Assembly: GCA_023078555.1 (NCBI GenBank)
Contig: CM041196.1
Location: forward strand, 7,017,985 to 7,081,984
Source of the DNA: Ulva prolifera
Taxonomy: Eukaryota > Chlorophyta > Ulvophyceae > Ulvales > Ulvaceae
DNA length: 64,000 nucleotides
Reading direction: 5' to 3'
Position numbers and translations under genes: made by a program
In this document: one piece after another, positions 37,701 through 60,500 of the stretch
Layout: each line of letters starts with the position of its first letter
Numbering within the stretch: the stretch's first letter is position 1
The notes under the pieces: model-generated
What the model saw: only the letters and a program-made list of their open reading frames with translations
Told to the model about the DNA's origin: nothing
The model's database searches: none

Positions 37701-40700
37701 CCGCAGGGCAGGCTGGCGCAATGGCGATGCCGGAACTGTGCAACAGCTACAGCCCGATGATCCACGGCGCGGCGCAAGAGGGTGGCGATGAGCGAAGCAC
37801 CGAAGTCACGCCGCAGCTGCTCGCTCCAGCGTGTGATGCGGTGAAGGCAGACCTTGCCGCTGCTTTGGACGCCGCAGGCACGCTCCAGGAAGCTGATGCG
37901 ATGCAAGTCGGCCCGGTGCCGGGCCAGGCTGCAGTGGCGCCTACGGCACCCGCCAACCATGCAGGCGCTACGCTACCCTGTGGTGCCGTGCATGATGTGG
38001 ACATGCATGGCGGTGCTGACGACACGACGACGCCGTGCCCTGATGTGCCGTGGCTGGTCGGCAGCCGCTCGCCAGGGCCTGAGGCCTGCGAGCCGACCAC
38101 GACGGAGCTCTGGGGCGCGCCGGCTGATGCACGGCCGGTGTCCGGGACGCCTCTGACGGCAGCATCCCTACCTCCGATCCTGGACCGTGCACTCCGCAAG
38201 GGTCACGAGCCGACTGCCGACGCCCCAGGGCAGCTTGTGGCCGCTGCTGCAGCCGAGGAGCACAATGCGCCCACTTCTCAGCAGCCAGCTGCTGCAGAGC
38301 AAGAGGCGGTGCATGCATGCCCTCCAGCGCCACCACCAGCAGCTGTTGTGTCAGACCGTGCCGAGGCCGTGAGCTGTGCTGCAGAGGTAGAAGGGGGGCT
38401 GCCATGCGCAGTGCAGGAAGACTCCTCTGCAGCGGCCGCGTCACCAACCCTTGAGGCTGGGACCTCGACGCCGCCGGCTGGGCCTGCAGCCCCCGGGTAT
38501 GCCGCGCAGTCCCCACAACTCGCGACTCCATCCTCCACGGCAGCGCCGGCAGCAGGGGACCCTCCTTCCTTGCAATTCAAGCGCTTCTGCATCACACCTG
38601 TGAGGGAGCTGCGCAAGCGTCGCGGCGGGCGGCCCGTCAGAGCCTGCGTGACGACTCCGGAAAAATCGGCGAACGCCCCCCCGGCTGGGGTCAAGCGTGT
38701 GTCGCCGCGGCTGCGACATGAGCGCAGTTCGGCTGGGGCCCCGGCCGGAGATGCGGCAGTTGCTGAGGCCGCTTCGCCCGCCGCAGTGGTGCAGCCGTCC
38801 CGACCACGGCGCAGCAGCCGCAGCAGCGCCCCCAGCATGCCGGTGCACGGCTCAACACCGTGCACCGGGCAGCTGCAAACCTGCGCTGCAAGCGTTGTGG
38901 CGCCTGAGACTGCCGAGATGCCTGCGGCTACCGACGCGCTGGGAAACGCTGAGCTTCCTGGCTGCGATGGGGCGCCTCCGATTGCCGAGATGCCTGCCTG
39001 TGCTGAGGTGCCTGCAGCCGCCGAGGTGCCTGTGTCCGTTGAGGCGCCTGCGCCCGCTGAGGTGCCTGTGCCTGCTGAGGTGCCTGCAATAGCCGAGGTG
39101 CCTGTGCCCGCTGCAGTGCCCGCAGTCGGAGAGGTTCCGGCCTGCGATGCTGAAGGTCCAACAGGCGCACCTGAGGCACACCAACGCTCTCTTCATACTG
39201 GAGACGCACCACCAGGACAGGTCACGGATCCAGAATGCACCACAGCCGCTCCTGCAGCAGCTGATGCTGACTCTGCCCCATCCACCTGCATGGACGCTCG
39301 TGCAACCTGCACGGTTGAGCCAGCAGTCGGAGGCGAGGCAGTGGAGCCGGTGCAGAAGGGCCATGCCCCCACAACGCCTGCGCCGGTGTCCCCGGAAGCA
39401 GCAGCGGCATCGCTGAGCATGCCCTGCCCGCCGCAGTTGCCCTCACCAACACTCCTGCAGCGGTGCGAGCCCCCGGGCTTGACGGAAGAATCACCCTGCA
39501 CCTCGGCCACTCCAGGCCGAGGCAGGAGCGCCGTCACGAGCACCGACGGCAGGCCTGCAAGCATATGTGGAGGAGCACCAGTAGCAGAGGAGACGCCCGC
39601 GAGTGTTTCCCGTGACGCGCTCGATGACGTCGGCACCAGCGGGCTTCTGCTGAAGCGGAGCCCACCCGTGCTGCCAACACCCGCGCCGCTGCCAGCTGCT
39701 GCGGTGGACGATCCCATGGACGGCATGCATATCGCCGTCGAGAACAGCTTCATGGCTTCCCCGGGGCCACCCCCGGCCGTCCCAGCTGCGTATGACTTGC
39801 ATGAGGTACACTGCGCCGTTGCCGGCGCTCTGCCTGCTGCAGCTCGTGAGGTGTTGGCTCGTACTGCAGCAGACGATCGCCGTGCCTGCGCGGCCAAGCC
39901 TGAGCAGGACAATACCGCAGCAGCGTCGGACGGTGTGAGTGGCGAAGCTGCAGCGCACATTGCGACGGCTGGCGGGGACCTCGCGCCGCCGCCCAGCTGC
40001 AGCGCCGCGCTGTTTGATCCCGACGTCGAGAGCCCGAGGAGCTGCTCTGCCTCAGGGTCGCTCGCGCAGCAGCTCCTGTGCATGCATGAAGGGAGGACCG
40101 CGGCGCTGGCTGCGGAGCTTGCTGATGTCATGGCCCCTGTGCTGGCGCCCATGGCGGCGCAGGCGGCCGAGACAGCGCCGGAGGGAGCGGCGCCTGCGTC
40201 CTCCGGGGTCCTTGCGGCCAAGCGCGTGATTCTCCCAGCGCAGGAAATGCTCGACGAATCGCTCAGGCGCAAACGTGTGCTCAGCCCCAGCAAGGTCGCC
40301 GCTCGAAACTGGGGCCCACACAGGTCTGAGGCCGCGCCGCAGATGCACACCTCGGTACGCCCTGCGCACTGCAGTCTCTGTGGGACTTGTGCAACGGTCG
40401 GTCGTGTGATACAACCTCGCCGGGCATGCACGGAACGCGGATTGCCGAAACTGTCAGACTCTGCGTGTGGTGCGGGTACATGCCCCGCTTCGACCCGCAT
40501 GCGCCATATGAACAGGAGGGCTTGTGCAGGGACCGAAGCTATCCCGGGGGCACCAGCTGCTGCAGGCTGCAACCATGCAGGGCAGCTCCCCCGGCTGCCA
40601 CCCCGGCTCCACCAGCAGCCCCCCCGGCGGCTCCGCGCCGCCGCTCCGCATGCACACGCCCCCTGGCTCGTACACCTCCCCCGTGCTGCGCCTCAGTGAG

Positions 40701-42373
40701 TCCCCGAGCCGCGAAGATGACAACTCCAACAGCCCCCTGTTCTCAGCTGCAGTCGGCGTCATCCGCTCCCCGAGCCGCATGCGTTGCAGCCACTCTGCCG
40801 GGCCCCCTGTGTCCACCTCGCCGCACAGGGTGGACCGCAGTGGCCGGGCGCCGCTGCCTTGCGCACCCCACCTGAAGCCCCACCCGCCGGTGTCGCCGGG
40901 GGCATGTGCGCCCCATGGCGGCCCGCCAGCTGCTCAGCGCTCCCCGATGCGGGCATCAAGCGCCGGGCTGATGCAGCAGGGCATGCATGGCAGACACCAC
41001 CCCGCGCCCTCGCCACAGCTGGGCATGCATGGGTATAGCAACGGTCCGCGCAAGTGGCGCCATGGCAGCGCACCTGGTGCGTATCCCTCCACCTGCTGCC
41101 ACCCTGCGTGTCTGACCACATTGGCGGCCTGTTGTCGCGTAATCTGGGCTCTGGAGCGCATGTGGCTGGCTGCAGAAACAGCATGCATGTGGCCTCAGCG
41201 CGAGGCATGAATGCAGGGTCTGCCGCGCCCCTGGGGCCGTCGGCGACGGCCGCGCTGCGCAACAGCATCGGCCCACAGCGGGCGCGCCAGCGCCGCTGCC
41301 GCCTCAGCCCGGCGACGTCGGCGCCGGCGCTGGACGCGATGCGTGGCGCTTTCCTGGACCTCCAGCTGGCCATCGCCGCGAGCCGGGGGGAGCCGTGGGC
41401 GACTCTGAACAGCTGTGGCGTCCCTCTGTCCGACCCCCTGGACCTGCCAGCCCTCGCTCAGAAGTGCGCTCCACCCCTTGAGTGCACATGCTATGGGATA
41501 CTGACAGTGCGCTGGTGCCACATGGTGCGACTACGCATAGGGGACGTGGTCATGCAAGCATGGGGTCACATTCGGTCATGTGAGGGGGTGCTGTGTAGGT
41601 TAGCGACACAGGCGGTGGCGGCGGCGGGGAGCACCCCAAAGGGGGAGTTTGCCAAGGCGCTCGAGGGGGCCCCCAGCGAGTGGACCACGCTGCAGGCCTC
41701 GCGCATCTCATGCTGGCAGCGCCGCAGCGGCAGCGACGCGCCCGCCAGCGACACGGCGGCAGGTGGCGGGGATGCGCCGGGCTGCGGCGTCACGCAGGAG
41801 GCCTCCATGGGGGCTGCGCCGGAGGGGCCTCTGCGGCGGGGGCTGCTGAAGCGGTCCCCCCTGCCGAGCGTGGTCCCGGCGGCCCCCCCGGTCGCACCTC
41901 TGCTGGACTCCAGCAGCGCGTTTGCCATCGGGACGCCGCCGGGCCCTTTCAACCGCGAGGACCCGGCGCTGCTCGCCTCTGGTAGCCATAGCCTTCTTGA
42001 GCCACCGGCACTGCCGCTGTTCCAGCAGAGCGCGCCTGCCTCCACAGCGCCTGCGGACGCGCCGGCGGCGGAGGAGCTTCCGCGGCAGCGGTCGGTGCGG
42101 TTCTCTGACCAGGCGGCGGTGAAGCTGTACGCCAACACCGAGGAGCCCAGCCGGGTCGCCGGAGTGCCGGAAGGGCTGGAAACCGTTGCGACGCGCAGCC
42201 CACAGAAGCGCCGGTGCAAGCGGCGGCGTACGGGGGCCTCTGGAGGGTCTGATGTGCCCGAGGTGTTGGGGGGCGCGGAGGAGGTGGAGGAGGGGGAAGT
42301 GGCTGAGGGGCCGATGCAGCTCTTGCCCGCGCTGGAGGCAGCAGCCGTGGGTGCAAGCATGTATGCACTGTAG
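34784..42373 (+). CDS. Giant intrinsically disordered protein with RVxF motif (unknown)
   Basis: Six exons (34784-35648, 35804-36349, 36837-40354, 40530-41076, 41217-41463, 41599-42373) join in phase to 2165 residues. Almost all is low complexity (Ala, Pro, Thr, Ser, Glu, Gly) without membrane segments. Recognisable pieces are three copies of a basic/serine motif (residues about 43-57, 128-143, 411-425), an Ala-Glu-Val-Pro repeat (about 1185-1240), and basic Ser-Pro sites such as RVSPRLR, RVLSPSK, IRSPSR and LLKRSPLP. A helix-prone stretch near 1850 is followed by an RVxF-type site RSVRF (2072-2076), the docking motif for protein phosphatase 1. The pattern suggests a nuclear or mitotic phosphoprotein scaffold. 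KNL1 and RIF1 share RVxF sites, but their folded domains are absent here. The family is unknown, but coding is well supported by phase. Confidence 0.72.
38981..39145 (+). repeat. Coding minisatellite (Ala-Glu-Val-Pro repeat)
   Basis: Degenerate 15-24-base units on the theme GC(T/C)GAGGTGCCTG(C/T)(A/G) repeat about nine times inside exon 3 of the giant disordered protein, giving AEVPAAAEV-like runs. The period varies in whole codons. Confidence 0.7.
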
Positions 42374-42634
42374 CCTGGCTGCGCGTTATGGATCGTGGCC
42401 TGGTGTGATGTATTGATCGGCGTCAGGAGCTGAGGGTGGGTGCAGCAGGCAGGTGCAGTGCTGCGTTGTTTTTTTCTGCCTTGTTTTAATACAACTGGAG
42501 CGTGGAGCGCTTGTTCTCCCATGTGTCAGACTGCAATGCCTTGGTCGGCCTGAGCTCCAAGACAGCTGGTGATTGCCGGGGATGTATGCAGATTGCATGT
42601 TCGTAAGACACTGCGCATGTGTTATTGTATGCGT

Positions 42635-42639
42635 GTAAG
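42635..42639 (+). promoter_or_regulatory. Polyadenylation signal TGTAA (giant disordered protein)
   Basis: TGTAA lies 262 bases after the stop codon, the first such word downstream that I found. Confidence 0.35.
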
Positions 42640-43198
42640 AGATCATTCATTCAAGCCTGGCTCGGTGTGGCTAGCGGTGCAATGTGACCATGGCCACTGC
42701 AGTGCAGAGGCGGAGTGCTGCCAGCCAAACTTGTACGTGGCCCCATCGGCCATTGGAAGAAGTTGTCAAACTTGCCAACGCAAGTAACCTGATGGCTTCT
42801 CACTACGTTACGCCTTCGCCTATTCCCGAAGTACCCGACAGGTTGCATCACTTGGCGCGACAAGGGCACTGCAAACATGTGCATGGCCATGCCGACACTG
42901 AACTAGGCGCGCGCGCAGATTGATCAACACCCGATGATCGTCGAGCTATGCTGGGCTGTAGTGAGCTGTATACGTCTACTTTGGTGTTGGTCTGCATGAT
43001 CGGGATGCTGGATCGCGATATCTTTCAAGGGCACACACACTGCAGTGGTCGACCAGCCACCGTAAATGTTCACCAGTCGCTTTAAGCTTGTCGATTCCCG
43101 GTACTCATACGAATCTGTTTACTACGACCAGCTACGTAGTTCACCTGCGCTTGTGTGCAGCCTGCAGCGTGACTATGTACATCGTTTTCATATAAGTA

Positions 43199-43246
43199 GC
43201 CCTCAAAGGCTGCCACGTTCCTTGGCCCTCAAAGGCTGCCACGTTC
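43199..43246 (+). repeat. 22-bp direct repeat, period 26 bp
   Basis: CCCTCAAAGGCTGCCACGTT occurs at 43200-43219 and again at 43226-43245, with one matching base on each side. It is a simple local duplication. Confidence 0.75.
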
Positions 43247-44780
43247 GTCGTTCACGGAACCTCGGGCAGGCGCCCGAGCGGCGCGGCCTCCTCGAACGGC
43301 AAGAAGGGTGATGTGCCGTGACGTCGCTGCAGGACACTGACTGTCTCGCCAGTAAGCACATGATGGTCATACGACATGGAGTGTCACAGAACACACGACA
43401 AAACGATTCCCTCAGAACGGCCCTGTCGGCAATGCGGGAGCTCCAGCTAGCGATGGTGTAATGTCTGTGTAGACCAGTGCTTGGTTGGTTCGCCAGGCAG
43501 TAGAGGAGCAGCAACTGCGTGTTCAACCTGCCAAGACGGTTCAGCATGAATTTGCACACATTTGCGGTGCTTGGCTATGCCATGGTACAGACCGAGCAAT
43601 ACGCTGATAACCGACTGACGCTGCAGCGCGCTGCCGGTTCACCAGCGCATTGCAATGCATTGCCACAAGCCTCGTGAGCTGCACGTGGCCCAATGCATGC
43701 AGAGCTGTGCGACATCACTCATGCACGACAACGACACCAGCAGCAACAAAGTGGACAGTATGGTATCGCAGCTGCGTTGCATTTCCGGCACACCAGCAGG
43801 ATCACGGCCTGGCGCGAGCTATACACAGAAGACACACAGAACAAGCTGCCACACAGGATCGCCAAAGATCATATCGAACTCATCTCGGTGCTCAGCTGGG
43901 CCAAGTCCACTGCATTGGGATGACAGCGCTGACGCCACTTGACAGCCGGTCTCGCCGCGCGCTCCACATGCGGGCATATCGCCATGCCTCATGCTGGAAG
44001 GAGTGCACTGACCGTGTGTCGGTCTGGAACTTTGTAGCCGGCGTCTGCCACACGCGGCCTGAATGCGGTCCAGAAGACCATGGTGTGCGTAGTGTCCAGT
44101 CTAGCTGGCGCTGGTTGCCGCAGATGGCGGGCAGCGTTGCCGTACAAGCACTTGGCGAGGTGGGGATGCGGGATGCATGCATGAGCGCCTACGGGCAACG
44201 CGACTCGCCGACTTGATGCTTACAGTCGATGATAAACTGGCGAACTTGCATCCTTGTCCGTTCGTGTGCATGTCGCAGGAGTCATTCTGCGTGAATGTCG
44301 CGTCGGGGCCGACACAGGGAGTGTAGCAGCGCCAAGTCCTTGCATTTCACAGAAAGGCCGCCGCTTTCAGGTTAAATTCCATTGAGTCAGCGCATAGCAG
44401 CCATCAAGTTTGGGCGCCACGTGAGTAATGCCGCACCACGATGTAACGGGGGGAGGGCGCAACTTACTGCGCTCAGGCTTTCATGAATGCGATCCGGCAG
44501 CCGGCGCCCTTTTTGTGCTTTGTATACCGCTGTGCCGGGCCTTGAGATCACTTTTGCTTACCACTGACGACGAACTCCGTTCCAGTTTTTACAGACGATT
44601 CACTTGAGATTTCTCTGCAGCAAGCACTGGGTAGCTGGCAGGGCCACAGCGTCGCAGATCCTACTGATTAAAATGTTTCGTTAATTCATTATTATTATTC
44701 CTTTGATATAATTATAAGCGGGTAAACAGTGCAAGCCATCGCGGATAGAGCATTCGTGTCGCATTGTTCCGCGAAAAATC

Positions 44781-46544
44781 ATGGACGTTGAATCGCCACG
44801 GACTCCCAAGAATGAGTACGCCGCTTTCTGTTACCGCCTGCCTGTATCACGGAGCTTTGGAGTCTGTTGGAGCAGCGGTTTCTGTCGAGGCATCTGTGGC
44901 ATCTTGCGCGTCCTGCCGACGCTACGCCAGGTCCCGTCCTGGGGTGCGCCGAGTCGGGCAGGAATCACCTGATAAACTCACGTGCATGACTGCTTAGCAT
45001 CTGCCTGAGACGTGTTTGAAGGCATGCGTGTCCGTACTTTACGTACAATTATCTGGGGACCGCGATTTCAGCCATCGCTCGCTTTGGCGAATCGCAGCTT
45101 ATACCCGTTCCGGCGTGGAGACACAGCGCATGTATGTTTTTTGCCTTTTCCTCCCTCATTGTCATGTGCCAGACGTTGCTCCGGCATCGAATCGTGGCCG
45201 TCATCAAGGCGCAACGTGCATGCGCTTCCTTGTCCATGTGTGTCGTTCGTCATTGACTGACATCCCGTCGAGCACCTCGACAATGTCCGGACAGCTCGAA
45301 GACAAAACAGTTGTTCATGTCTGTGATGTGACATATTCTTCGCGCCCAGATCAACATCGTATTTCCCAGCTCATCTGCTTTGCTGCACCTCTCGTATGGC
45401 CGGCGATTCACTCAGCCAACAGTCATACTTACGAATCAGAGCAGTGGAAATCAGGGATTGGGCCGCTGTGCGGTATTCCACAGGCGTGCTTCGGACATTC
45501 GTTTGACGTGCCTAGCTTCAGACGGTTGCCTACCGGCCTGTTCATTGTTATGACGAACGGCGACCTGGTCTCGTATGACCAGCCTCTAAAGCATGTGGCA
45601 CTACAATTTATTTCTGTTGTTCATTAATGTGGCGGGCGTTGACGTGTCATTCCGGTCGTGGTTGACCACGATAGACTCAGCGATGTTCAGGTACTGCGAT
45701 GTACTAAAACGCTCCAAATTGCAGGCTTACGTACGTGAGGATGGGTTTCAGAGACGTATCATCTACTTCTTCTTTTGCCCCGTCATGCCAAGGCATGGGC
45801 ATGGAGACATCCTCAGAGTCGCTGCCCGCCTGTGGCCCGTCCACAGAGTACAGCCAATCGGCGTTGTCTTCGGAACTCTCATCCACCGCCATCGATTCGG
45901 ATAACCCATTCGCTGACTCTCCGTCGGGCTCTCCCAGTCAAGCAAGTCGCTTCAGCCAGAATCCGGAGTTGTCCCCGCTTCGAAATTGTCAGGACACCTC
46001 GTTCAGAAAAACCGCGTTCATGGACGACCCGAAAGCAATGTCAGTCCCAATAGCGTCCAACTGGAAACTTCCCAGGTCTCTTTCTAGAGGCAATTCGCAA
46101 GCTGCGCCAGAGAGCAGCCCTCTTCGTTGGTACGCATCTTCGCAGGTTGCTCAAGTGCTCTATTCTATTCTGCGTGAACTTGGGCGTGTCATGGTTATCA
46201 ACTTGGACTATGCTGGCTGGCAGGTGTGTGCCCTGTGCAGGTCTTTTTCAAACGTGCAGAAAAGGAAAGTCGACCCACGGCTCAGTCTCTCTTTGCCTAG
46301 GGGTAGGTCAGAGTCAGCAGGCTCGTTCGAAGGCCCAGATTCTGATCGATCGTACTTCGACACTGGCAGAAGCCATCACGCTACTACAGCTCCATTGTTC
46401 TCATCGGCATCCGTCGGTGCTGTAGGCAGTGCTGGGTATTCAACAGGCACGTTGCTGAAGCATTCCAATCGGCTGCTTTCATGGGATCATTTAAAACGAC
46501 TGGAGGCTTCAGAGCCTGGTACCATGGACCCCTACCTAACCTAA
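44781..46544 (+). CDS. Serine-rich protein of unknown function (238 residues)
   Basis: Three exons (44781-44815, 45752-46129, 46241-46544) join in phase. The 35-base first exon begins MDVESPRTPKN and ends at a GTACGC donor. The second continues EDVSSTSSFAPS. The 111-base second intron also starts GTACGC and lacks in-frame stops, so a spliced and an unspliced reading are both open. The protein is rich in Ser, Pro and Leu, probably disordered, with a conserved-looking block RWSFSNVQKRKVDPRLSLSL and the C-terminal end LLSWDHLKRLEAS. There is no signal peptide or membrane segment. Ser-Pro sites (SPRTP, LSPLR, SSPLR) suggest phosphorylation. No family is recognised. The long first intron, and so the start, is the weakest part. 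Confidence 0.5.
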
Positions 46545-46586
46545 GGAGGGTATTTATTTACATGTTGAATATGGGTGGCATCGAAG

Positions 46587-47201
46587 ATGGTCGGTGAGTT
46601 TTCCCACGTTGTGATGCTTGGGGAAGATAGAACATACCGGTGCGGAGCATGTGGATGTTCTGGAGTAGGTTGTGATAAGCTGCATCGGGGGTTGCTGGGG
46701 TCCAGCCACAGCTCGACACATGGCCGAAGACTTGCGTGAAATGCAGCTGTTGCTGCAGTTGATCCTGGCGCGCTTGGTGTTCTGATTGATAATATACCTC
46801 TGGAAGGTTGTGGCTTGTATGTAGAATGCAATTACTGTCTTGGAAAAATGGTGAGCCTCAAGTAGAGGTCTCGGAGTTCGTGAGTTGTTACAGCTGTATG
46901 TGCCCGTTTACAACCTAGTACATACGCCCAATATTATGTATACAGGCGGTTTGTAAGTGTGGCAACCACTGTTATGCTGGCATAGCCTTGCACGGATTTG
47001 GTTCACCTGGTGAGTCTTAACAGGTGTGCATTATGGCCTGGTGCTGCTTCTGGAACCTGCAGTGAGGGTGGCGTCCATGGCGCAAACACTTGCATGTGGT
47101 GCCCAGCCACCCTCTTGCATGGCGGCTGTGGTACAGGTGCATATGATTCAAACAAACACTGCAGAATTTGCAACCCCAGCAGCTTGCACCGCGTGCTTTG
47201 A
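46587..47201 (+). CDS. Candidate small cysteine-rich protein (68 residues)
   Basis: Three short exons (46587-46664, 46946-47009, 47137-47201) join in phase with donors GTAGGT and GTGAGT and acceptors ACAG. The product has eight Cys in the order C-x2-C-x-C-x4-C-x-C-x3-C, then C-x2-C near the end, with His at 34, 42 and 55 (YRCGACGCSG, AVCKCGNHCYAGIALHG, NKHCRIC). The CxC clusters recall metallothioneins, but the paired CxxC with His would also suit a zinc-binding fold. Neither is established. A longer third exon in the same final frame (from about 47025) would add more Cys. It begins 42 bases after the stop of the preceding gene, which is unusually close. Too short for routine gene callers. 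Confidence 0.38.
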
Positions 47202-47877
47202 ATTTGACACGCTGGTTGGCCAAATGTGGAGCAAGCCCGAGCCTTGCCGAGCTCGGTGCCCTCACCGGTGCATGCTTTGTATACAGATGAGGCTATGTGA
47301 TCAGCATGAGTCTTGCCTGCGGCTGTGCATGGCCGCACAGAGATGTGTGCAGGTTGCACAATTAGGTGTGACTTTGCCCACAACTTGCAGTTAAAGGGTC
47401 TTGGCTGTCACAGCACAATACATGACCACGGTAGCCACCATGTGATTTGGAGGTATGTAATGCGAGGGTACATAATTTGACGAGGTGACAGTAATCATCC
47501 CCATGGAACAGACCATGTGTTGCCATTATATTCGGTCTCAGATCTTAATCATGTGTACTGTCAAAACATCGTACATGTCTCTTTCTGTGTAGGGCTGACT
47601 AGATCACTCACAGCAGTGTGTATGACTGCATGACGCCATACTAACACGATCACATAGCCACGGTCCAGGAGACACCGACGTCTTCGCCACGCACTGCTGC
47701 AAAAGCTAGCTGCTGCCACAGAGAGCAACAGCAGCAGTTTAGTCCAGTACGCAGAGGATGGGCAAGCAGCAACACTCGATGCCACGGCAGCTCTGACGCA
47801 GCATCAGCTTGCTGCCTCACTGCTCTAGCGCAAGGCCAGTCCGGCCGCCAGGGCTATGTGGCGGTCCATCAGGAGCC
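47202..47877. other. Convergent intergenic region
   Basis: It lies between the 3' end of the plus-strand cysteine-rich candidate and the 3' end of the minus-strand MEKHLA gene. Open frames (for example 47026-47394 plus, 47561-47785 minus) show no domain. I see nothing else in it. Confidence 0.4.
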
Positions 47878-50486
47878 TCACGCCGCAGCCTCGTCCGCAG
47901 GCGCGGGCGCTGCCGCCTGCAGCGCCTGTAGCCGCTCCTTGCGCCGCAGCAGCTCCTCCACCGCCTCCTGCACCCGCCCACGCGTCAGCACAAGCGAGGC
48001 ACCCAATCCATCCCAAAGCCACCACAACGGGGCCAAACGCCACTCCTGGCCACTACAGCGCTGCCTGGAGTCACCAGGATTCCAGAACACCAACTCTCCC
48101 CCTTGGATGTAAGCACTACACAGGACCCGCCGCACGAGCACAATGCTGGTGGATGTCTGGCATCACATATACATGCTCGAGCCGCTGCAGAAGCATTGGC
48201 ACGGAACGTCACGCTCCCCGGACGCGGCCAGACGCCAACAAGGTTTTGCGGCTGGGCTGCCATGGCGGCTCTCGAGGACCCACACACATCGAATATGTGC
48301 AAGATTCATGTAGCACGCAAGAATCATGTGGTGCCACGTGGGCGGGCCCCGAGGGGGGGCGGGGGGCACACCTGGACCTCCGGGCTCTTGTTGGTCATGC
48401 CCTCCTGCTCCTTGAGCGCCCGCACGGTGACCCCCTGCTCCTCTACGGCCGCCTCGGCCTCCGCTAGTGCCTCCGGCGTCGCCTCCGCCGCCTCGGCGTC
48501 CGCGCCGGCGCCGCAGTTGACGACGGTGCCATCTTCAAGGGTGTACGTGTCAAACCAAGCCGCCTGCCCCACTATTGTCCCTGCAGCGCGAGCGTGGCCG
48601 GTCGGCTTTGCTGTGTGTTGGAGGAATCTGGAGAACGTGTGCGAGCACATCTTCATGAGTGCGTGGCTCAGGGGCACAGCCATGCGGAGAGGTGGGGGGC
48701 GCAGAATATCGCTCAGAGTCTGTGGTAGGCTTGGGCACATGTCCTGGACTGCGGGGCGAGCAGGTGTGATGGTATGGTGGCCCGAGATTTTGGCCATGCA
48801 TGAGCGGCGCCAGCCAGGAGGCCCTCAGCACGGGGCTCATATGAACGCATGCATGGACGACCACGTGGTGCTGCTGAGCAAGCATGGGTGAATTGAGTGG
48901 CCAGCTTTCTTGTGCCCGGCAGCTTTTCTGGGCCCCTGTCAGGTCTGTGAACTATTGACATGATGTGAATGCTGCTGGGGAATCCCGTTTGCCCATGACG
49001 GCTTACGGCGTGAGGTGCTTCTTGAGCACACGTTTCTGATTCGATGGCCATTCGGCCACTGCCCGATACCGGACCAACGGGAGCCTGTGGCTCTGAGCGA
49101 GGCGGTGTGGCACGTGGATCAACAGCATGCTCCGGTTGAGGTGTGACCACGCTATGGCTGAGGTGTGACACTATGGCTGAGGTGTGACCACGCTATGGCT
49201 GAGGTGTGTCGGAGAGCTTCGAAAATCGCCAACAGGAACTGCGGTCGGGCTGGGCTCAGCACCTCTGAGCCAGTCAACGTGGTCGTGCGGCGCCAGCACG
49301 TGCGGAGAGCCAGTGCACGGCACAGGAATGCAGCTTGGAAGCAGACAGAGCACAGAGGCACATGCGATGTGATGCACTCCTTGTAGGCAGGTGGATCAGA
49401 TCCACAGCAGCAGGGGCTTGCTGTGGCAGGGCTGCCTCACCTGTTGGGGAAACGATGTTCCAAAGGTTCGGCTCTACCTCAAAGACCCGGCCTTTGACCC
49501 CAATTTTTCGACCCTTACGCTTCGCAACCACTAGCTCTATATCCGAGTTGGGTAGTTTCCGGCTGTCCCCCTCGACATCATCACTCTCGTTGCCCTCATC
49601 CTCCACCTCCTCTGGCTCCGCTGCGGCTTCATTCGTGGGGGAGGCGGGTCCGCTGGGGCCGCCCGGGACGATAAACTTGAGGAACTCCTCACGACTAGCC
49701 ATCTCACTGTCTTCAATGCCCGCAACACAAATTGTGGACCTGACACCAACGAGGTCGTGGTATGACTCTGCTTCAAAGGCGTCCAGTGCAGCCTGCACAC
49801 ACCCGGTCACGGTCTGCCCCTGGCCTTGATGAGGCCCTCACACCACCGGTAATGAAACATGTAACGTTTACCGGCGTTTTAACGGCTGATTTGGCAGTCA
49901 TGGAGCCTGCAGGATCGTGCCTGGTTCGCATATGTGTAGACTGCATCTTCATCTGGCACATTCGGAGCGAAGCGATTATGAGAGAGGATTGCAAACGGTG
50001 CATTGAATACAACGTCTGCGATCTTCTCTATCTCGGCACTCTCTATCAGGGGCTTGCCTGCTGCTCGCCTGTAATCTAGATCCTTGTGGACCTGATGCTC
50101 ATTGTGGCCTGTGCCTTGAATATGCCCCATATGCATCCAATGATCCATACGTTGCACATGGGGCTCAAAATCAATTGTTGTGTCTCATTACTTCAGGGTC
50201 AGGGACGCTCACTGCGGGACAATGTGTCAATACCGGAGAGGAAACTGCCGCACCTGTAGCTCTCGATCATCAACAGATGCTGCATGATAACCTCTGTTTT
50301 CTGCCAAGGTTGTAGCTTGGGGACATCTCCAAGCAGACCTCCGCTTTTCTTCGCCCCCTTCTTCCCACCCTTCTTCTTGCCTTTCTTGGCCTCACACGAC
50401 GCCGATCGACAGGACAGAGGTGCCAGAGCGAAACGATGACCTGCCCAAACCGGGGCCATGCACGTTGGAATCAGGCTGGCACGCAT
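47878..50486 (-). CDS. MEKHLA-domain protein with C-terminal WHEP domain
   Basis: Five minus-strand exons (50486-50254, 50068-49921, 49792-49441, 48580-48372, 47967-47878) give 343 residues in phase. The start (MRASLIPTCMAPVWAGHRFA) looks like a plastid transit peptide, followed by a Lys/Gly-rich patch. Residues about 62-260 form a MEKHLA (PAS-like) domain: MIESYRRAAGKPL, FNAPFAILSHNRF, VYTYANQAALDAFE, GRVFEVEPNLWNIV and VGQAAWFDTY, interrupted by an acidic insert. Residues about 286-330 form a WHEP domain (AVEEQGVTVRALKEQEG, then EAVEELLRRKERLQAL), an RNA-binding helical hairpin normally fused to aminoacyl-tRNA synthetases. Small-ligand sensing coupled to RNA binding in the plastid is a guess. 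Intron 2 starts with GC. It diverges from the alternative oxidase gene. Confidence 0.85.
49136..49210. repeat. Intronic tandem repeat, about 22 bp
   Basis: The unit GAGGTGTGACCACGCTATGG repeats three times with one shortened copy, inside intron 3 of the MEKHLA-WHEP gene. Confidence 0.75.
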
Positions 50487-51273
50487 CTTGGCTGCAATGG
50501 ATGGATGCTTCACGGCCGCGGTGGTGCCGGCGTTGTTTGCGGGATGGTCCCTTCGCACAGAAACCACGTCACAGACGTCCGTTCAAAAGCAAGCAGATAT
50601 TACTGTCTACTGAATGTGTCAGATCCCTGATGGGCATCTCGGACAGCCATTGCGATGGAACGTGGCCCGTGGCGTTTGGTGTCCACACCAGCCAATTCGG
50701 ACATTCCTTCTGAATTCAACATCAGATCCGCAAGCTAGCGCGGGCCTCAGCAAAGAATGGCTCGAACACCAGTGAAAGCTTCCTGACGCGCCTCGGTGTC
50801 TATTTTTTGCGGATCTCCGCGAGCGTTGCAGCGCATCCTTGCACCACCGTTGCCGCACCAAGCGCTGGATGCGGCTTTGTTGTTGTGTGACAGAGTCAAC
50901 CTGTGTGGAGGGACGGACATGTCCTCGGATTGAATGTCTCTAGGCAATTCGAAATGTGGTCCTAACCTGTACGGTGTGCCATGTGAAATATTCGGTGGGC
51001 ACGCAATTCGCCGCATGGTCGTAATTGCCGTCAGCGATGTGGTCAGCACAATGGCTGGGGTGCATGTGGCCACCAGGAGGACTGAGACATTCAGGCATCC
51101 ACATCATGTATATATTCACTCCATACTGGCGTGTTCGCTGGATAATCAACTACTCCAGTTCCGCTGCAGCCGGAGGTTGTCGACACGACTGTGCACAAGT
51201 ACACGCCTGACCTTGCTCAAGTTCTTGAAGAACACAACACGTTACATTACATTCATAACATCGTCTGCTCAAG
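50487..51273. promoter_or_regulatory. Bidirectional promoter region (MEKHLA-WHEP / AOX)
   Basis: The two flanking start codons point away from each other and are 787 bases apart, so this interval must carry both promoters. Frames inside it show no protein character. I found no specific operator. Confidence 0.45.
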
Positions 51274-53360
51274 ATGCTTCGACACATTTCGTCGTCTGCC
51301 GTGCTCATGGCAAGACAGGGCATGGCAGACGTGGCCACGGTACCGGCTTTGAGTGCACTGGCCAAGAATGCAGGCAACTGGGCACACGGAGGCCACGCCA
51401 AAATTTTCTCAATCGCACAGGTAAGTACTCTCATATTGTTACTGTTGGCGCTCGGCTTGATTGAGCAGTAGGCCGTCACGGCGGCATCTTGAACGCGGCC
51501 CAACCTGCCAGTCACCTGGTCATGCGGTGCACGGCTACGCCTCTTGTAGCCGGTGCTTCCGTCACATCACGCAATCTATACCAGTCACTACAACCACAGC
51601 TTTGTACTTGGCGTTTTGCGGCCATGCCTTGATCGAGGTCAGCTTCTGTTCGGAGGTTGTGTCGGCAAGTCTGCAGGCACCTTCCTCGTACTTCAGCTCA
51701 GCTGCAGCCGAGGCGAAGGGCTTCGCGCAAGGCATCTCAAAGAATGAAGAGCCGACTACTGAAGGTCTGCCTGGTGGCAAGGAGTACAATCCCGCGCCTC
51801 ACCCCTCCAAGGCAGCGACAGACCAGGATGCGAGCTACCTGCTGATGCACCCGGTGTACTCCAAGGAGTACGTCGAAAGTGTCAAGCCGAAGCATCGGCC
51901 TCCCGAGAACGTGCGCACTATCCGCATGACGCTATTGAAGTGAATGGCTGGTTCGAGCTGCACATGTGGTCAGGCTGTACGACCTCGTGCTAGCACTGGA
52001 GCATCACCCACTTGCACTGGTCTCCACCTTCCCGCCATTGCTACCCAGCCGCTGTCATCCCATCGCCTGTGGCCGTGTGCAGTTCCTAGACAGGCTCGCG
52101 TACTACAGCATCCAGACCGTGCGGGCGTCGTTTGACCTCATCACGGGGTACCACCCGGACCGCATGAACCGGGAGAAGTGGCTGACCCGCATCGTCTTCC
52201 TCGAGACCGTTGCGGGCGTCCCGGGCATGATGGGCGCCATGATCCGCCACCTCCACTCGCTACGCCTCATGCGCTGGGACCACGGCTGGATCCACACCCT
52301 CCTCGAAGAGGTGCCTCCCTGTGCAGCCCTGCTGCTCCTCTGCTCGCAGGCCCGCTTGCTAGGCCTGTGCTCGCAGGCCCGCTTGCTAGGCCTGTGCTCG
52401 CAGGCCCGCTTGCTAGGCCTGTGCTCGCAGGCCTGCTCGCTGGCCCTGTGCTCGCACTGCACGCTGGCCCCGCGTTATTACCGCTTTATTGCCAATTTAT
52501 TTCGATGGGTCTCGGTTACCATGTGTGACGGGGGCAGATTCCGCGATCCTACAGCATTGCAAAAAAATTAAAAGTGCTATAGTAATCCTGCCTCCTCGTC
52601 TTGCTCCGTGAATCACACCCTCCTCGCAAGATGCCTCCCCACCTGCCCCTGCCAATTGCATGCAGCCTATGCAAGGTACACCACACTGCCTTGAGGCCAG
52701 AGCGCACGCACATACACGCACACATGCCTTGGTGAGGTGCACAGGCCCCAGCTGCCCCGCGCTGGTAGACACCCAACACACTGGTAGACACCCAACGGCC
52801 GTGCCGAGGGGAGATCGACCGCAGGCCCCGGATTACCCTTCCAATGTGTGCGATTCGCATCCTTGCAGAACACACGCATGGCGCTCATGCATGCAGCGAC
52901 ACAGGTCATCCCATTCGCAAACCCAGGGCGCCGTGGCGTGCAGGCCGAGAACGAGCGCATGCACCTGCTCACATTCCTGCAGCTGAAGCAGCCGGGGCCA
53001 TTCATGCGCGGCCTCGTGCTCGCGACCCAAGGCGTCTTCTGCAACCTCTTCTTCCTCTGCTACCTCGTCTCCCCGACGTACTGCCACCGCATGGTCGGCT
53101 ACCTCGAGGAGGAGGCGGTGGTGACGTACACGCACCTCCTCGCCGACCTCGACGGCGGCCGCCTGCCGGAGTGGGCGGCCGAGGCGGCGCCGGACATCGC
53201 GGTGCAGTACTGGCGCCTCGAGGCGGGCGCGACGGTGCGGGACCTCGTGCTCGCGGTGCGCGCCGACGAGGCCTGCCACTCCCACGTCAACCACACCTTT
53301 GCCGGCATGAGGCACGACGAGAGCAACCCCTTCTCGAGCGGCTCCCACACCGTGCCGTAG
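51274..53360 (+). CDS. AOX: Mitochondrial alternative oxidase
   Basis: Four exons (51274-51420, 51677-51910, 52083-52310, 52944-53360) join in phase 0 to 341 residues. AOX moves electrons from ubiquinol to oxygen on the matrix face of the inner mitochondrial membrane without proton pumping. The first 45 or so residues resemble a presequence (MLRHISSSAVLMARQG). The diiron ligands are visible in FLETVAGVPGM (Glu168), ENERMH (Glu207, His210), GYLEEEAV and RADEACHSHVNHTF. The two short membrane-binding helices are present, and the protein ends NPFSSGSHTVP. No Cys occurs before the catalytic domain, so the plant regulatory disulfide is missing. There is no fungal-type extension. A 27-base repeat lies in the third intron. 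The match to green-algal AOX is strong and the gene looks intact. Confidence 0.97.
52341..52448 (+). repeat. Four-copy 27-bp minisatellite in AOX intron 3
   Basis: The unit, starting TGCTCGCAGGCCCGCTTGCT, is present three times exactly and a fourth time diverged. It starts 31 bases past the donor. Its period is a whole number of codons and the exon's frame stays open through it. Confidence 0.9.
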
Positions 53361-54575
53361 CTGCGGCTGTGGTGCCGGGCGGAGGGCACAGCGAGGGCAG
53401 AGTGTGTGGAGGGCTGGCTTCACCAGCGTTCTTGTGCGAATGAAGCCTTTCGTGAATTGTAGGCCAGCGTGTGCGTGTGATGAACCCCCAGCCTTCCTCA
53501 GCAGTAGCGTGGCTGTACCTGACAGTAGTTTTTGTTGTGTGTGACGGCTTGCATGAGCTAGCCTAGTGACGCACCGATGGCTGCTCTGTGGAGTGCTGGC
53601 CACACCAAGGCAGGAGAGGCCTGCTCTGCTTCAACTGGTAGGCGCCAAGCACACGTTGTAATGAGGGTGGCCCAGGCTGCCAGAGGCACAGTGGGTTCAG
53701 TGCCACCAGGGATGAACAGCAGCGGACATGAGGCCAGCCCATTGCATAACAGAACGCCAAGAATGCTGCAAAGCACCCCAGTGACATCTGGCAACAGGCA
53801 CAGAACCGGGAGATCACAAGCTTCAGTGTTCCAGAGTCGGATGGGCAGAATTGTAGAAGCTTACATGCTATATGATAGGGCAAACACAATGGATCACATT
53901 TAGACCAGCATCGCTTGTCGTCACGACCACAGGTCCCCAGTGTGACTGTCTGACACACAGCAGCCCCTGCCACAAGGATGCCTCAGTCTTCCACATAGAG
54001 GTGTCGACCATGCATACACTCCAAGCCGCTAGACACATGTCGTCACCTGGACAGTGTGGCAACTTGTGCTGGGGCACTAGACACCAGGAAGGTGGGGCCT
54101 CCATAGTGCTACCGGCGGCTATTCCACATCTCAGGCAACGAGTGCCAGCAACGTTCGAATCAAATATCTCTGGCCATGAGGGCCGGGCCAGTGCCTACCC
54201 GAGGCCACCTACTCCCATGTCCACTTCTGCCGAGCCGCAAGGAGCACTCTGAGAAGGGCCCCGCGGCACCGTAGCACTACCTACCACACCTCATACACAA
54301 GCTCCTTGCGGCCATGAGCACCTCAGGTACAACAGCCGAATCACAAATAACCAAACTGCAAACGGCATAGCGTGACCTCACAATCTACACGATGTGCCCT
54401 GTCAGCACCGCCCACACCCCTGCGTTTCATTCAATACGTGCGGCGCCTCAGCCACTCTTGTGGCCACCTCGCCTCGCGGGCTTCACGGCCTTCTCACGCG
54501 CAGCCAGCGCCCAGCGCACAGCACCGGCCACCGCGCGCGCGGGGGGTGCTCGCGGGGGCGGAGGAATGGAGCGCC
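53361..54575. other. Convergent intergenic region (AOX / RND protein)
   Basis: It lies between two 3' ends. Frames at 53.6-54.7 kb on both strands lack motifs. TTACA at 53859-53863 would read TGTAA on the minus strand and could serve the RND gene, though it is about 700 bases past its stop. Confidence 0.4.
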
Positions 54576-57500
54576 TCAGACGGTGTGGATGTACTGCAGG
54601 TGGCTGGGCGGCGCGGTCTGCGGGGTCGCGGGGGCGGCGGCGGGGGTGGCTGAGGGGCGGTGCACGAGCATGCTGCGCCGCGCGAGGCGCTCCATGAGCG
54701 CGCGCGCCTCCTTGTGCTCCAGCAGCACCTTGTAGCCGACGCGCAGCAGCACGAGCGCGAGCGCGGACGACATCACGACGAGCAGCAGGCTGCCGAGGTT
54801 GCCGAGGGGCCCCCGCTTGCTCACGAACCGGCTCGTCGCCGGGGCGATCATCTGCACACGCATACGCTGATTAGTGATACAACGATACACCTGTAACGGC
54901 AGGCAGCGCCACGGGAAGCGCACGCCACAAGGAGAGGACCACCGCACACCCGAGCCGCCGACGCCAGTCCATGTGGACTAGCACATGAGCTGCTGTGGCC
55001 GGAGGGCTCTTGTGTGGTAGTGGACTGAGACTGGAGCACGGAGGGAAGTGCACAAAATGCACACATGGACTGTCTGCAAAAGCAGCGTTAGAGCGCATGC
55101 AGCTAGATGGAAAAGACGTGTTCAGTGTGGGCGAGGGGTCCTCTGCCGCACACCGGCCGGGGCAGCAAAGGACCTCGTTGCAATGGCGGCATCAACAGCC
55201 TGACTCACTGCTGCATGAGCCTGGCAGTTTGTGTCATGGCCACGCAGGTATCTCCCCAGGTGCTTTGGCATCGGCGACTGCAGTGGGCAGCGGAGGCAGC
55301 GCAGCACCAGAACTCGGCAGGGACGCCGCATGAGAAGGCAGCAAAGGTGGCGTGGGGGGCGCACCATCACGGCGAGGCCGATCATGCATACGAGCATGAA
55401 GCGCACGGCGCGGCTGCGCATCACGGCGGCGATGGTGCGGCGGGTGAGCGTCGCGGCCGGCGGCGGCCGCGTGCGCGTGTTGACCGGCCCGAACATCGCG
55501 ATCATCGGCGTCAGGAAGAGCAGCGCAAACAAGAGGCCGACGCCCATCGTGACGGAGAGCACCGCGGCGAAGCGCTGCAGGATGAGCGTGCGCGTCGCGA
55601 ACAGCGGCAGGCACGTCGCGACGGTCGAGAAGCCGGAGGCCACGATCGGCATCCCCACCGACTGCAGCGCCTCCCTGCAGCGCGGGGCGGCGTGTCTACA
55701 TGTGTGACACGGCGAGCCTGTGAAGGCGCATGCATGTGGGCATACATCCGCGAGGATCTGTCAGGAAACGCATGCCAGATACGGCTTGCTGTGCGGTTGT
55801 GGGGGGGCACGCGGGGCGCTGGCAAGCCGCTGCACGGCCATGTTGCAGCAGTGTCCTGTCACGATGCGAGCGCCTCTGGCGCCGCTACGCCACTCAGACC
55901 CCTCGAAGGAGAGCACTCGCATGCAGCCCACACCTCCAGCTCTGACCGCCTCTGGAGCCAGCATGGCAGGCACGCGTACATGATGACACATCAAAGGCAC
56001 GGCTCCGTCATGCATGCTGACAGCAGGCTCGCATGTGCGTGTGGAGCGGGGGCGCACATGGCCATGCCGAAGCGGTCCGGGGCGCGCGAGTGCACGTAGC
56101 TCTCGCAGATGTGGATGCAGAAGTCGACGGCGAGGCCGACGAGGCTCGTGATGGCCATGCCCTCGATCGCGCCGAGCGTCCAGCCCCAGGTGTACATGAG
56201 GCCGAGGACCGCGAGGTTCGTCATGAGCACGGTGCCCGTCGCGAGGAGCGTGAGCAGCGGGCGGCCGGTGAACACAAACACGACGGCCGCGGCGAGGCCG
56301 ATCGAGAGGAAGACGGTGCTGTACACCGACGCGGAGATCTTGACGTATGTGACCGCCGTCACCCAGTCCTCGGATGCGACAAACATGCCCTGGTATGGCT
56401 CCTCCTGTAGCAGGGGTGGGGGTGGGGGGGAGCGCTTGTGGCCACATGTCAAAACAGGGCTCCGTGAAGTCTCACGTTGCAGCGGGCCTACGACTTTGCT
56501 AGCACATCGAGCATTGGCCGCTTCTTGGCGCAGATGCTGCAGCTGCAGCGCCGCGTCTGAAAGAGTCTCTGCATCCAGCGGTGTCAATTCCTCATGAGCA
56601 TGCATGAGGTCTGCATGCGCCACAGCTTGCATGCGGTACAAGGCACATCATCCAGCAGCAGCCCCAGAAGGCCAATGTTGGGTCGCCGTGCAGTATTTCC
56701 AGGGCTGCCTCCCAGAAATTAGACCTGAATATTCGGAATTGTTGCATGTGATCGGGCCCGACGACCCAACACTGCAGGACGCCATGGATAATCTCCACAA
56801 GACGTGCTCGGCAGCCTGGGCCGGGCGCTGGCGGGGAGGCCGCACCTCCTGGATGAACTGCGCCCAGGCGTCCCAGTCGTTGTAGGAGTGGAAGACGTCG
56901 AGCGGCGCGGAGCTCTTGACCGTGGCCGTCAGCACGCCGACGCGCAGCCACGCCACCTCCGGCCACGGCGCGTCGCCGTCGTACGCAGCGCGCAGCACGA
57001 CGTCGGCGCGGGGGTCGGCGCGCGCGTACCCGATGCTCTTCCGGAACTTCTGCACACACGGGCAGAGGTTCGGCCGCGCGTCAGCATCCGCCCCCCCGGC
57101 AGCGCTCAGTGGCAGCGGGTGCTGGCCATGCAGCAATCTGGTGCAGTCATCTGCCACAATGCTGCCGTGCATGTGGACACCGGCTCTGTGTGCCAGGTGC
57201 TGTGGCGCTCTGACCGCCTTGTCATGCAGGCGGTCCCTACGTGCTGACTGCCTCTCTGACTGGTGCCGTGGTACTCCACTTTGACCAGCGCTCACGCATG
57301 CATGCGCATGATGTTGTCCCTGCGGTGCATCCTGCCTCCCTGCCGCTGTCTCAGTAATACGTGCACACGCAGCAGCGCGGGAGAGGCAGGGGGGAGCACA
57401 CGGTGCCCTCGCCGGTGGTGAGCATTCGGAAGACGGCCTCGTTGAATGCGGCGCCCGTGGGCAGGCCGGTCGCGTTGTGCAGTCGTGCGCAGTAGGGTTT

Positions 57501-60500
57501 GCCGGCGACGTCTGGGTCCCACTTGCCGGCGCAGAAGTCGCGCACACCCTGCAGCGCGTCGGTCTGCAGCGCGCCTGCGAGCTCCCGCCGGTGGTTCGTC
57601 GGCACCATTGTTGATGTCTGCACGGGGCTGCACAGTCAGCGCAGGCGGTGGCGCGTGCGTGCCGGTGGATGAGAGCTGGCCGTGCTGCGGCATGAACACA
57701 CAGCTCCGTTTCCAGGACACGGGCCGGACGAGGCGGCGTGAGAGCTAGACCTCGGACCTCTCATGCAGCAATTGCAAGCAGGGCAACCACGTGTTTGTGT
57801 CATCCTCTCCGAGCAGGGCGGGACCAGTGACAGCCATCAGAACAGTCACACAAGGAATCTTAGGAAAACTGGTTTCAACAGGGCAATCGGTATCACAGAA
57901 ATAGATTGAAAGAACCATGATGGCAAAGTGTCAGCAAGAGGGGAGGGCGAACGTTGAAGGTGAGGGGGTTGACGGCGCCCTCCAGAGCCTCAAACAGGTC
58001 CCCCAGCTGCCGCATCACCAGCAGCTGCGTCTGCGCGTCCGACAGGTTGAACCTGTCAGGCGCCGCAAACTCGACGAGCGTCGGCACCGGCGGCCCCACG
58101 GGGTCCCCCCCGACGGTCGGGCTGTCGTCGATGCCGCCGAGGGCCACGCCCCACACCAGCGAGGCCGCGACCGTGCTGAACACGCCCTGCAGGCATGAGC
58201 GCGCCCACTGTCACCAAACTGCGGGGGCGAGAGGGTCGAGTGGACACATCGATGCAACGGCGACGGCACGGTCAAGTGCGTATGTCATCACAGGGACACG
58301 GTACAGTGGTGGTCCCGTGCTTAAGCAACCCCAGTAGGACAGGCCTCTGGCCACAGGCAACCAACAAAACGGGCTTTGTGCTTCAAACATTCTTTCATGC
58401 ATACAGACTACGTGCCGGTGCGTCCAGGAGCACCCTGTTGCACCCAGGTGATTGGTGTCTGCTTGGAGTGATGGAGTGATGGAGGGGGGGAGGGGCACAC
58501 GGTTGCGGTCTCGACGATGGGTTTGTCAGGGTCCGCGCCGAGGTAGCCGGCAGGGTTTGCGGCGAAGCCGACGGGGTCCGCAAAGGCGTCAGTGAGGGGC
58601 CGGGCGCATGAGAAGCACACAGGCACGTTGTCCGCCTCCTCGCTGTTCTGGTAGCGCCAGAAGAACTGCACGTTGTGCTCGTGCTCGAACAGCGGCGGCT
58701 CGCTCGTCGGCGGCTGCCGCAGGTTGATCGTGCCGATGGTGCCCGCCACCGCCGCGCCGACCACGAGCGCCACCGCTAGCCACCGCACCCTGCACACGCC
58801 GCACAACTCGTCTTGCATGGGCACTGACCTTCGCATCGCATGGCACCACAGCATGCTCCTCCACCTCAGGATGTAGACCGCCCTGAATTGAGAAACATCT
58901 GAGCTCAATGTTGTAGGGCGGGACTCAGGTTCTGATCGTGGCTGCGATTGAGAGGCAGGCCGCCACAGCTCACACATCTATCCAATCCGGTGTATCCCAC
59001 AAGTAGCCCACCAAACCAGCCTTGCATGCTGACCCAGTCACGCCGCCTCCCCCGCACGGCGCCTCCGGCAGGCGGACGGTCGGCAGAACCCCCGAAGCAG
59101 AGCAGCAGTCGCAACGGTCGGCAGGTGGAACGCACGAGAACACGGCATGGACTGCATAGGAGACGCCGGTCTGGAACAGCGCCTCGGCACGCGTCGGGGC
59201 TTGCCGCTCCGGCTCCGGCACACGCAGTGGCGCGCGGTCTGCGGCCGGCGTCGCGAGGCGGTGGTGCGGCGGTGGCTTGAGCAGCGGCCACGCGACGCGC
59301 CCAAACTCCAGCACCCGCGGCGGCGCGCGCGGCACGAACCCCGGCCGAATCGACATCGTGTACACGGCCGTCGACACCGTCTCGAGGCAGCAGCACAGCG
59401 CCGCCCACGGCCGCGGCCGCGCCGCGGGGAGGACGCCGGCGAACACCGCGGCCTCGTCCGCGCGGCGCAGCGCCGGGAACATGATGTGGCGGTCCCACAC
59501 CGCGATGCAGACGGGCAGCCATGACACCGCGAGGATGTAGTTTGTGACGACGAGGGTCGCGAGGAGGAGGCCGAAGGACTGCACGGCGGGGATCGGCGAG
59601 AAGACATTGGCGGCAAAGGCGAAGGCGGAGGTGGTGGAGGTGGCAAGGGTGGCGCCGGAGGCACGGGAGAAGGCCTGCGTGAGGCGGGTGTCGAGCGCGA
59701 AGTGGCGCGCGTAGGGCCGCGTCTCCTCGAAGAAGGAGACAAACACAAAGATATCGTCGAGGCCGATGCCGAGGATGACGAAGGGCGCGAGGAAGTGGAG
59801 GAAGTTGATGTAGCGCCAGCCGTGCGTGACGGCGTACGCGAGCCACGCGAGCGGGAACGACGCCTGCATGCATGAGCGGTTCAGAGGCTGCACAGCGTGC
59901 ACGCGCCCGGCGCCCCTCGCCGGGGGGTTCATTGCAACCCAGGACCAAGCGCAACGCGTTACAACGGGTCGCACGGTGTCGGCGGCATGGGGCGGTGTTT
60001 GTGCACAGCAATACCATGTCATCCGGACACTCGGATCCGGAGTCATTTTGGCAGCAAATAGCTTGCGCCAACAGGTAAGGACCCTCGGTCACTGGACCAG
60101 ACAGGCGGAGTCCAGATACGGGGGACACCTGTGAACACAAAATCGCGTAGCCGTGGCTTCAAGGACACTGGGGGGGATGTGTTTCCCTGGGGGGCGGGGG
60201 GCGCACGATGATCTGGAAGAGGCCGGCAGCTGTGAGGAAGGTGGAGCCGGTGCCTAGGCGCAGGAAGAGCGCGGCGGCGACGAGGGAGAGGCCGACCCAG
60301 CGCGCGTCGCGCATCAGCTGCCGGTCCACCTGCCGCTGGATGATGTCGGTCTCGCCGTAGTTGATGATGACCGCCTCCGACGCCTCGTCCGCAAACAAGT
60401 CCATCAGGTCTGCATGCCACACAGCCGGTGGCTGCAAGAGGGTGAAACGAGGGGTCCCACAAACAAAACACAAGTTGTTCTCTCGAAAGCGCTCTCCACA

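Follow-up and report, generated by a model that had tools for sequence, protein, structure and literature searches.

MEKHLA occurs as a stand-alone bacterial protein, as in Leptolyngbya (locus L013) and Rhizobium tumorigenes (WP_111218365.1), each of which has the same domain, at full length, as the algal protein described here, and a MEKHLA protein from Chlamydomonas is reportedly included in the founding paper on the domain. The class III HD-Zip proteins of land plants resemble the algal protein in being eukaryotic and in having MEKHLA fused to other domains, but they carry a homeodomain, a leucine zipper, and START, as set out in sections of PMC3794426 and PMC4496561; none of these, nor any synthetase domain, was found in the 340-residue algal protein, for which Pfam at E 1 returns MEKHLA and WHEP only. 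A section of PMC3794426 also records the MEKHLA domain from Chlamydomonas, and one part of PMC12003273 describes the chlorophytes examined there as lacking HD-ZIP proteins.

The WHEP hairpin is treated as an appendage of aminoacyl-tRNA synthetases. According to a passage of PMC4072531 (2014), its occurrence in non-synthetase proteins had not been reported, and for plants sections of PMC7564348 locate it in GlyRS and cytosolic AsnRS and describe it as missing from the organellar form of AsnRS. The initial annotation, which had WHEP occurring mostly on synthetases, is backed on this point by the first source and, for plants, by the second. The same sections of PMC7564348 describe WHEP domains as mainly serving contact with RNA or protein. 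A database-level exception is the InterPro WHEP-TRS entry among the domains listed for legume NLR proteins in part of PMC11734081, and the Monosiga APG5 entry with WHEP-TRS mentioned in a section of PMC3407069 carries synthetase domains too. The appendages of GlyRS and plant AsnRS belong to the same hairpin family as that of the algal protein, but the latter has no synthetase catalytic domain.

A further comparison is with the PAS-ANTAR-LOV photoreceptor (PAL), in which a PAS-type sensor is combined with a small RNA-binding output domain (as described in part of PMC12797116). PAL differs in being bacterial, in using ANTAR and not WHEP, and in containing a flavin LOV domain; the likeness is an analogy of design, and kinship is not implied.

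The locus from Ulva prolifera encodes a MEKHLA domain followed by a WHEP hairpin. The literature search returned no paper with both domains, and no algal MEKHLA-WHEP protein among MEKHLA papers on cyanobacteria, Chlamydomonas, green algae, or the chloroplast. Compared with this literature and with prokaryote genomes, the architecture appears to combine known domains in a new way without being of a new kind, and other algae may well carry it and databases may well list it. If other algae lack it, it would be a lineage oddity; if it is common to them, a conserved function would be likely. Here a hairpin treated as a synthetase appendage is borne by a probably PAS-like domain, and a small protein of two domains could reveal what a lone WHEP binds and whether a sensor controls it. 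It would also join class III HD-Zip as a second type of MEKHLA fusion in eukaryotes, and it bears on the recruitment of a bacterial domain in the green lineage.

Gene Model and Fusion Point

The locus lies on the minus strand of the window, the whole 64,000-nucleotide stretch of DNA analyzed here. Joining five minus-strand exons from 50486 to 47878 gives a single open reading frame of 1023 bases that remains in phase and encodes 340 amino acids; the start codon is the ATG at 50486, with no earlier in-frame ATG after the preceding in-frame stop, and the stop codon is at 47878. Exon 1 (50254..50486) includes the start codon, a presequence-like segment (residues 1–31), a Lys/Gly-rich stretch at approximately residues 32–50, and the N-terminal helix region of MEKHLA as far as ESY-R. 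It is separated by intron 1 (50069..50253; GT-AG, 185 bases) from exon 2 (49921..50068), which encodes MEKHLA core with the motifs APF..SHN and YTYAN. Exon 3 (49441..49792) encodes the remaining core, including a 46-residue acidic insertion (residues 170–215) and the strand RVFEVEPNLWNIV, and is followed by intron 3 (48572..49440; GT-AG, 869 bases). Exon 4 (48372..48571) contains the last MEKHLA strand, VGQAAWF, an acidic linker (residues 257–282, net charge −7), and the first helix and loop of WHEP. Intron 4 (47968..48371; GT-AG, 404 bases, phase 0) splits WHEP into two halves, the second of which is encoded by exon 5 (47878..47967) together with an Ala/Pro-rich tail and the stop codon.

Intron 2 (49793..49920, 128 bases), which falls inside MEKHLA, is of the GC-AG type with the non-canonical donor AACCAG/GCACGA. 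We chose this donor because it keeps the conserved YAN-A motif, in which Tyr and Asn are invariant across the 116 bacterial relatives. A GC-AG intron in this position on the minus strand is a possible gene-prediction trap.

The lengths of all four introns are 2 modulo 3, and read-through of each meets a stop after 13–55 codons. Third-position G+C is 0.67 overall and ranges from 0.49 to 0.88 by exon. The nearest TGTAA polyadenylation signal is 966 bases past the stop codon and, with a mean spacing of about 1490 bases, carries no weight as evidence. Read from the sequence, the five-exon gene model is likely to be correct.

Both domains were recovered by Pfam, each above its cut-off and in the order MEKHLA then WHEP, and the joined frame is open to the final stop, in agreement with the initial annotation, in which the exons had been read as one in-phase protein carrying these two domains. 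MEKHLA (PF08670) scores 55.3 bits (E 8.5e-15) against a cut-off of 23.7; the match covers residues 72–166 and profile positions 6–91 of 143. In a comparison made with and without the insertion, the better of two matching stretches covers profile positions 8–91 when the insertion is kept. When the 46 acidic residues 170–215 are removed, the match rises to 61.5 bits and covers profile positions 8–142 of 143, which is the whole domain including its last strand. For WHEP-TRS (PF00458), with a cut-off of 32.5, the full-length protein scores 33.9 bits (E 3.2e-08) and its 89-residue C-terminal piece alone 37.4 bits; the synthetase hairpins of the same genome both fall below the cut-off (AsnRS-like, 26.4 bits; GlyRS, 22.0 bits). 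A search of the 340-residue protein against NCBIfam returned nothing at E 1, and a 42-residue piece holding only the end of MEKHLA had no Pfam match on its own.

The fusion rests on no doubtful inter-domain junction: exon 4 encodes both VGQAAWF and the first WHEP helix, and exon 5 completes the hairpin. VGQAAWF, at the start of exon 4, aligns with bacterial GQAA-F; GQAA occurs four times over the six frames of the window, one of them in this gene. If the MEKHLA and WHEP exons instead belonged to separate genes linked by chance splice signals, the great length of intron 3 (869 bases) and the need for a GC donor in intron 2 would be readily accommodated, but the end of one domain and the beginning of the other occur in a single exon, the joined MEKHLA is full length once the insertion is left out, and the phases agree. 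The nearby minus-strand ORFs tested, 16 of the longer ones from 46544 to 51931, likewise had no match to any other domain in Pfam at E 0.1. We rejected an exon-joining artefact on the grounds of the shared exon and the complete MEKHLA, and consider an annotation error of this type very improbable.

Bacterial Relatives and Ancestry of the Two Domains

A scan of prokaryote genomes identified 114 relatives, the best 80 of which were retained, and MEKHLA is present above its cut-off in 79 of 292 genomes of the cyanobacterial phylum. Among the 91 MEKHLA matches listed, 77 score at least 126 bits and occur in open frames of 154–302 residues. The 14 weaker ones all score 46 bits or less; three are in frames with stops, and 11 are in frames of 395–1782 residues, which are likely other PAS-containing proteins. 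The 116 bacterial MEKHLA ORFs from fetched loci, a set that includes two pairs of identical proteins fetched twice, are 137–269 residues long from the first Met, with a median of 156. Tail length was measured on the 82 of these 116 that contain the motif GQ[AC]A (the other 34 fall outside this measure), and all 82 end within 22 residues of it, whereas the algal protein adds a WHEP hairpin. The algal MEKHLA is 32% identical to that of Rhizobium (WP_111218365.1) and 33–34% identical to that of Leptolyngbya (L013).

No MEKHLA-WHEP fusion was seen among the bacterial relatives. The two-domain order, which the initial annotation had proposed seeking in cyanobacteria, was represented there by its MEKHLA half only, with WHEP found in 0 of the 292 genomes and no fusion; the built-in controls of this search were silent, so absence is not demonstrated by the search alone. 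The WHEP family model used on cyanobacteria did recover the AsnRS-like gene in the algal genome. No relatives were found in the viral contigs scanned.

No recurrent bacterial neighbor giving a hint of function was found among ORFs of at least 110 residues in short flanks (approximately 1.5 kb for the cyanobacterial-phylum set). Among the 25 largest families in these neighborhoods, none except MEKHLA itself occurs in more than four of the 31 cyanobacterial-phylum loci, and one neighbor family is present in 15 of the 116 bacterial loci, none of which is in the cyanobacterial-phylum set.

In the first of two trees, the smallest starred set containing the algal row comprises 34 rows, and 30 of the 33 others come from cyanobacterial searches or have cyanobacterial titles; in this tree no branch is longer than that of the algal row, which connects to a second long branch. 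In a second tree, for which 70 of the 117 rows were retained, the algal row fell in no starred set, and AU tests rejected neither placement (p 0.558 and 0.647). The algal end branch is 2.48 and 4.07 in the two trees. The trees thus leave the algal MEKHLA unplaced, and plastid ancestry is unsupported by them. Two metagenome bins titled Klebsiella pneumoniae (L011 and L016) have a MEKHLA that groups with Syntrophobacter-titled and gammaproteobacterial bins, and their titles look doubtful.

Family search of the algal genome identified only one other WHEP. The gene that contains it also has an OB-fold exon and encodes a class II (D, K, N) synthetase, which we read as AsnRS. The WHEP of this gene (L002, C8:104020-104187) resembles the insertion described for plants in a section of PMC7564348. 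The GlyRS of the same genome has a WHEP-like N-terminal hairpin, as read by eye, that is also split by a phase-0 intron. We considered and rejected this intron as a trace of exon transfer from the GlyRS WHEP: both introns are phase 0 and mid-hairpin, but they are placed differently in the two genes, at residues that do not align by eye.

Taken plainly, the sequence unites a domain of bacterial type with a eukaryotic hairpin. The hairpin would most likely have come from a eukaryotic synthetase gene, and MEKHLA from a bacterial gene, perhaps that of the plastid ancestor.

Localization and Prospective Function

Residues 1–31 of the algal protein include three Arg, one His, six Ala, and four Ser, with no Lys, Asp, or Glu, and the Lys/Gly-rich stretch with its flank (residues 32–56) has a net charge of +7. 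Measured to a shared Ser in the first helix, the N terminus is 52 residues longer than that of the Leptolyngbya relative counted from its chosen Met, or 29 residues longer if the whole bacterial open frame is coding. By composition and extra length, a transit peptide or organelle presequence is plausible, and the protein may enter an organelle, of which the plastid is the likeliest. It could instead be cytosolic or nuclear, with a weak presequence and a Lys-rich stretch that serves as a nuclear or RNA-affinity tail; the charge of residues 32–56 would suit such a location, as would the plant distribution of WHEP in cytosolic AsnRS and GlyRS and not in the organellar AsnRS form (PMC7564348, in the sections noted). 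However, the lack of acidic residues in an Ala-, Ser-, and Arg-rich N terminus and its excess over the bacterial relative fit a presequence, and we regard a location outside the organelles as unlikely.

An AlphaFold2 model of the Leptolyngbya relative, made with 34 sequences, has a pLDDT of 93.7 and shows the helix-strand order of PAS domains with extra N-terminal helices. A Foldseek search of the PDB with this model gave 370 matches with E values no higher than 0.001, the top one being the FAD-binding PAS domain of NifL (2gj3, E 1.6e-7). Many LOV domains are among these matches, and at rank 42 is the RNA-binding LOV receptor 6hmj, which we take to be PAL. The model of this bacterial relative supports a PAS-like fold for the MEKHLA family, and a flavin cofactor is only a suggestion. 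Sequence searches of solved structures returned none for the whole algal protein and none that was credible for the bacterial MEKHLA profile.

We defined as conserved those columns in which a residue is common to about 90% or more of the 116 bacterial MEKHLA ORFs, of which there are 33. The algal protein keeps 22, although one of these, G194, aligns inside the acidic insertion and is doubtful, and changes 11 (L98V, P120A, W138Y, P145R, R147T, A150V, E151A, Y219R, R223K, R230V, and I233V). With one in three of these positions changed, the bacterial ligand, if any, may not be retained. The algal hairpin contains seven basic and 11 acidic residues, for a net charge of −4; the two synthetase hairpins of the algal genome are likewise acidic, at −5 (AsnRS-like) and −2 (GlyRS). 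RNA binding is possible but, because the algal hairpin is acidic, not favored. Compared by sequence with solved structures, the hairpin gave only weak matches, first to a Utp14 chain (E 0.42) and then to GlyRS (E 2.8).

The explanation that we tentatively prefer, with somewhat less than even confidence in it as a whole, is that of an organellar PAS-like MEKHLA domain controlling the docking of WHEP. On this view, the gene would be nuclear, and its 340-residue product would run from a presequence-like N terminus through a Lys/Gly-rich stretch to a PAS-like MEKHLA, which bears an acidic loop, and then to WHEP at the C terminus. MEKHLA would be a small-molecule- or redox-responsive, probably dimerizing module, and the hairpin would be its output, docking the protein to a partner such as a translation-machinery protein, RNA, or tRNA, with docking set by the state of the PAS-like domain. 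The open gene model, the two domains, and their fusion within an exon are what the sequence contributes to this explanation, and the remaining steps are our proposal.

Alternatively, the hairpin may be for protein-protein docking only, in a synthetase complex or another assembly, and MEKHLA a structural dimerization domain that does not sense. The acidic hairpin and the altered conserved positions of MEKHLA are compatible with this, as is the description of WHEP as contacting either RNA or protein (part of PMC7564348); however, the 22 conserved positions and the full MEKHLA length that are retained fit a working domain, which leaves docking without sensing rather unlikely.

The initial annotation had suggested a ligand-sensing domain tied to an RNA- or tRNA-binding hairpin and acting on plastid translation or tRNA, and this reading is weakened by the 11 changed positions and by the net charge of the hairpin. 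In its fullest form, a PAS-type sensor from the plastid ancestor would have captured a synthetase hairpin and become a signal-controlled, RNA- or tRNA-binding plastid regulator of organelle translation, which we consider decidedly unlikely. If the regulator reading is correct, the protein would be the eukaryotic parallel, in design, of bacterial PAS-ANTAR-LOV, and its WHEP would be the first one described with an independent role outside a synthetase.

Copy Number and Genomic Surroundings

Family and protein searches identified one MEKHLA-WHEP locus in the 88.9-Mb, 44-contig genome, although exons are seen singly in such searches and a diverged copy could escape them. A genome-wide search with the hairpin returned only the two exons of the gene itself. 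The chlorophyll a/b-binding family gave 38 exon-level matches in the same genome, which marks it as that of a photosynthetic eukaryote.

Assignment of WHEP to an adjacent synthetase gene was considered and rejected, as no synthetase-like exon was found among the nearby ORFs tested. Among ORFs of at least 30 residues in positions 38001–58000 of the window, none resembles the GlyRS or AsnRS-like exons of the genome at E 0.01; this is a weak test, as it covers two enzymes only and also missed the WHEP of this gene.

Upstream of the MEKHLA-WHEP gene and on the opposite strand is a gene for alternative oxidase (AOX; 51939–53357, plus strand) of two or more exons, with Pfam scores of 102.5 and 192.6 bits; it is the nearest Pfam-named opposite-strand gene among the ORFs scanned. 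A tandem repeat of 4.4 copies of a 27-base unit (52337–52456) adjoins an AOX exon. Elsewhere in the window, Pfam identified an exon of the Patched/sterol-sensing-domain type (58973–60088, minus strand; 56.8 and 50.9 bits), an FKBP-type isomerase exon (27324–27884, plus strand), and an exon resembling the RED N-terminal region (29241–30176, plus strand).
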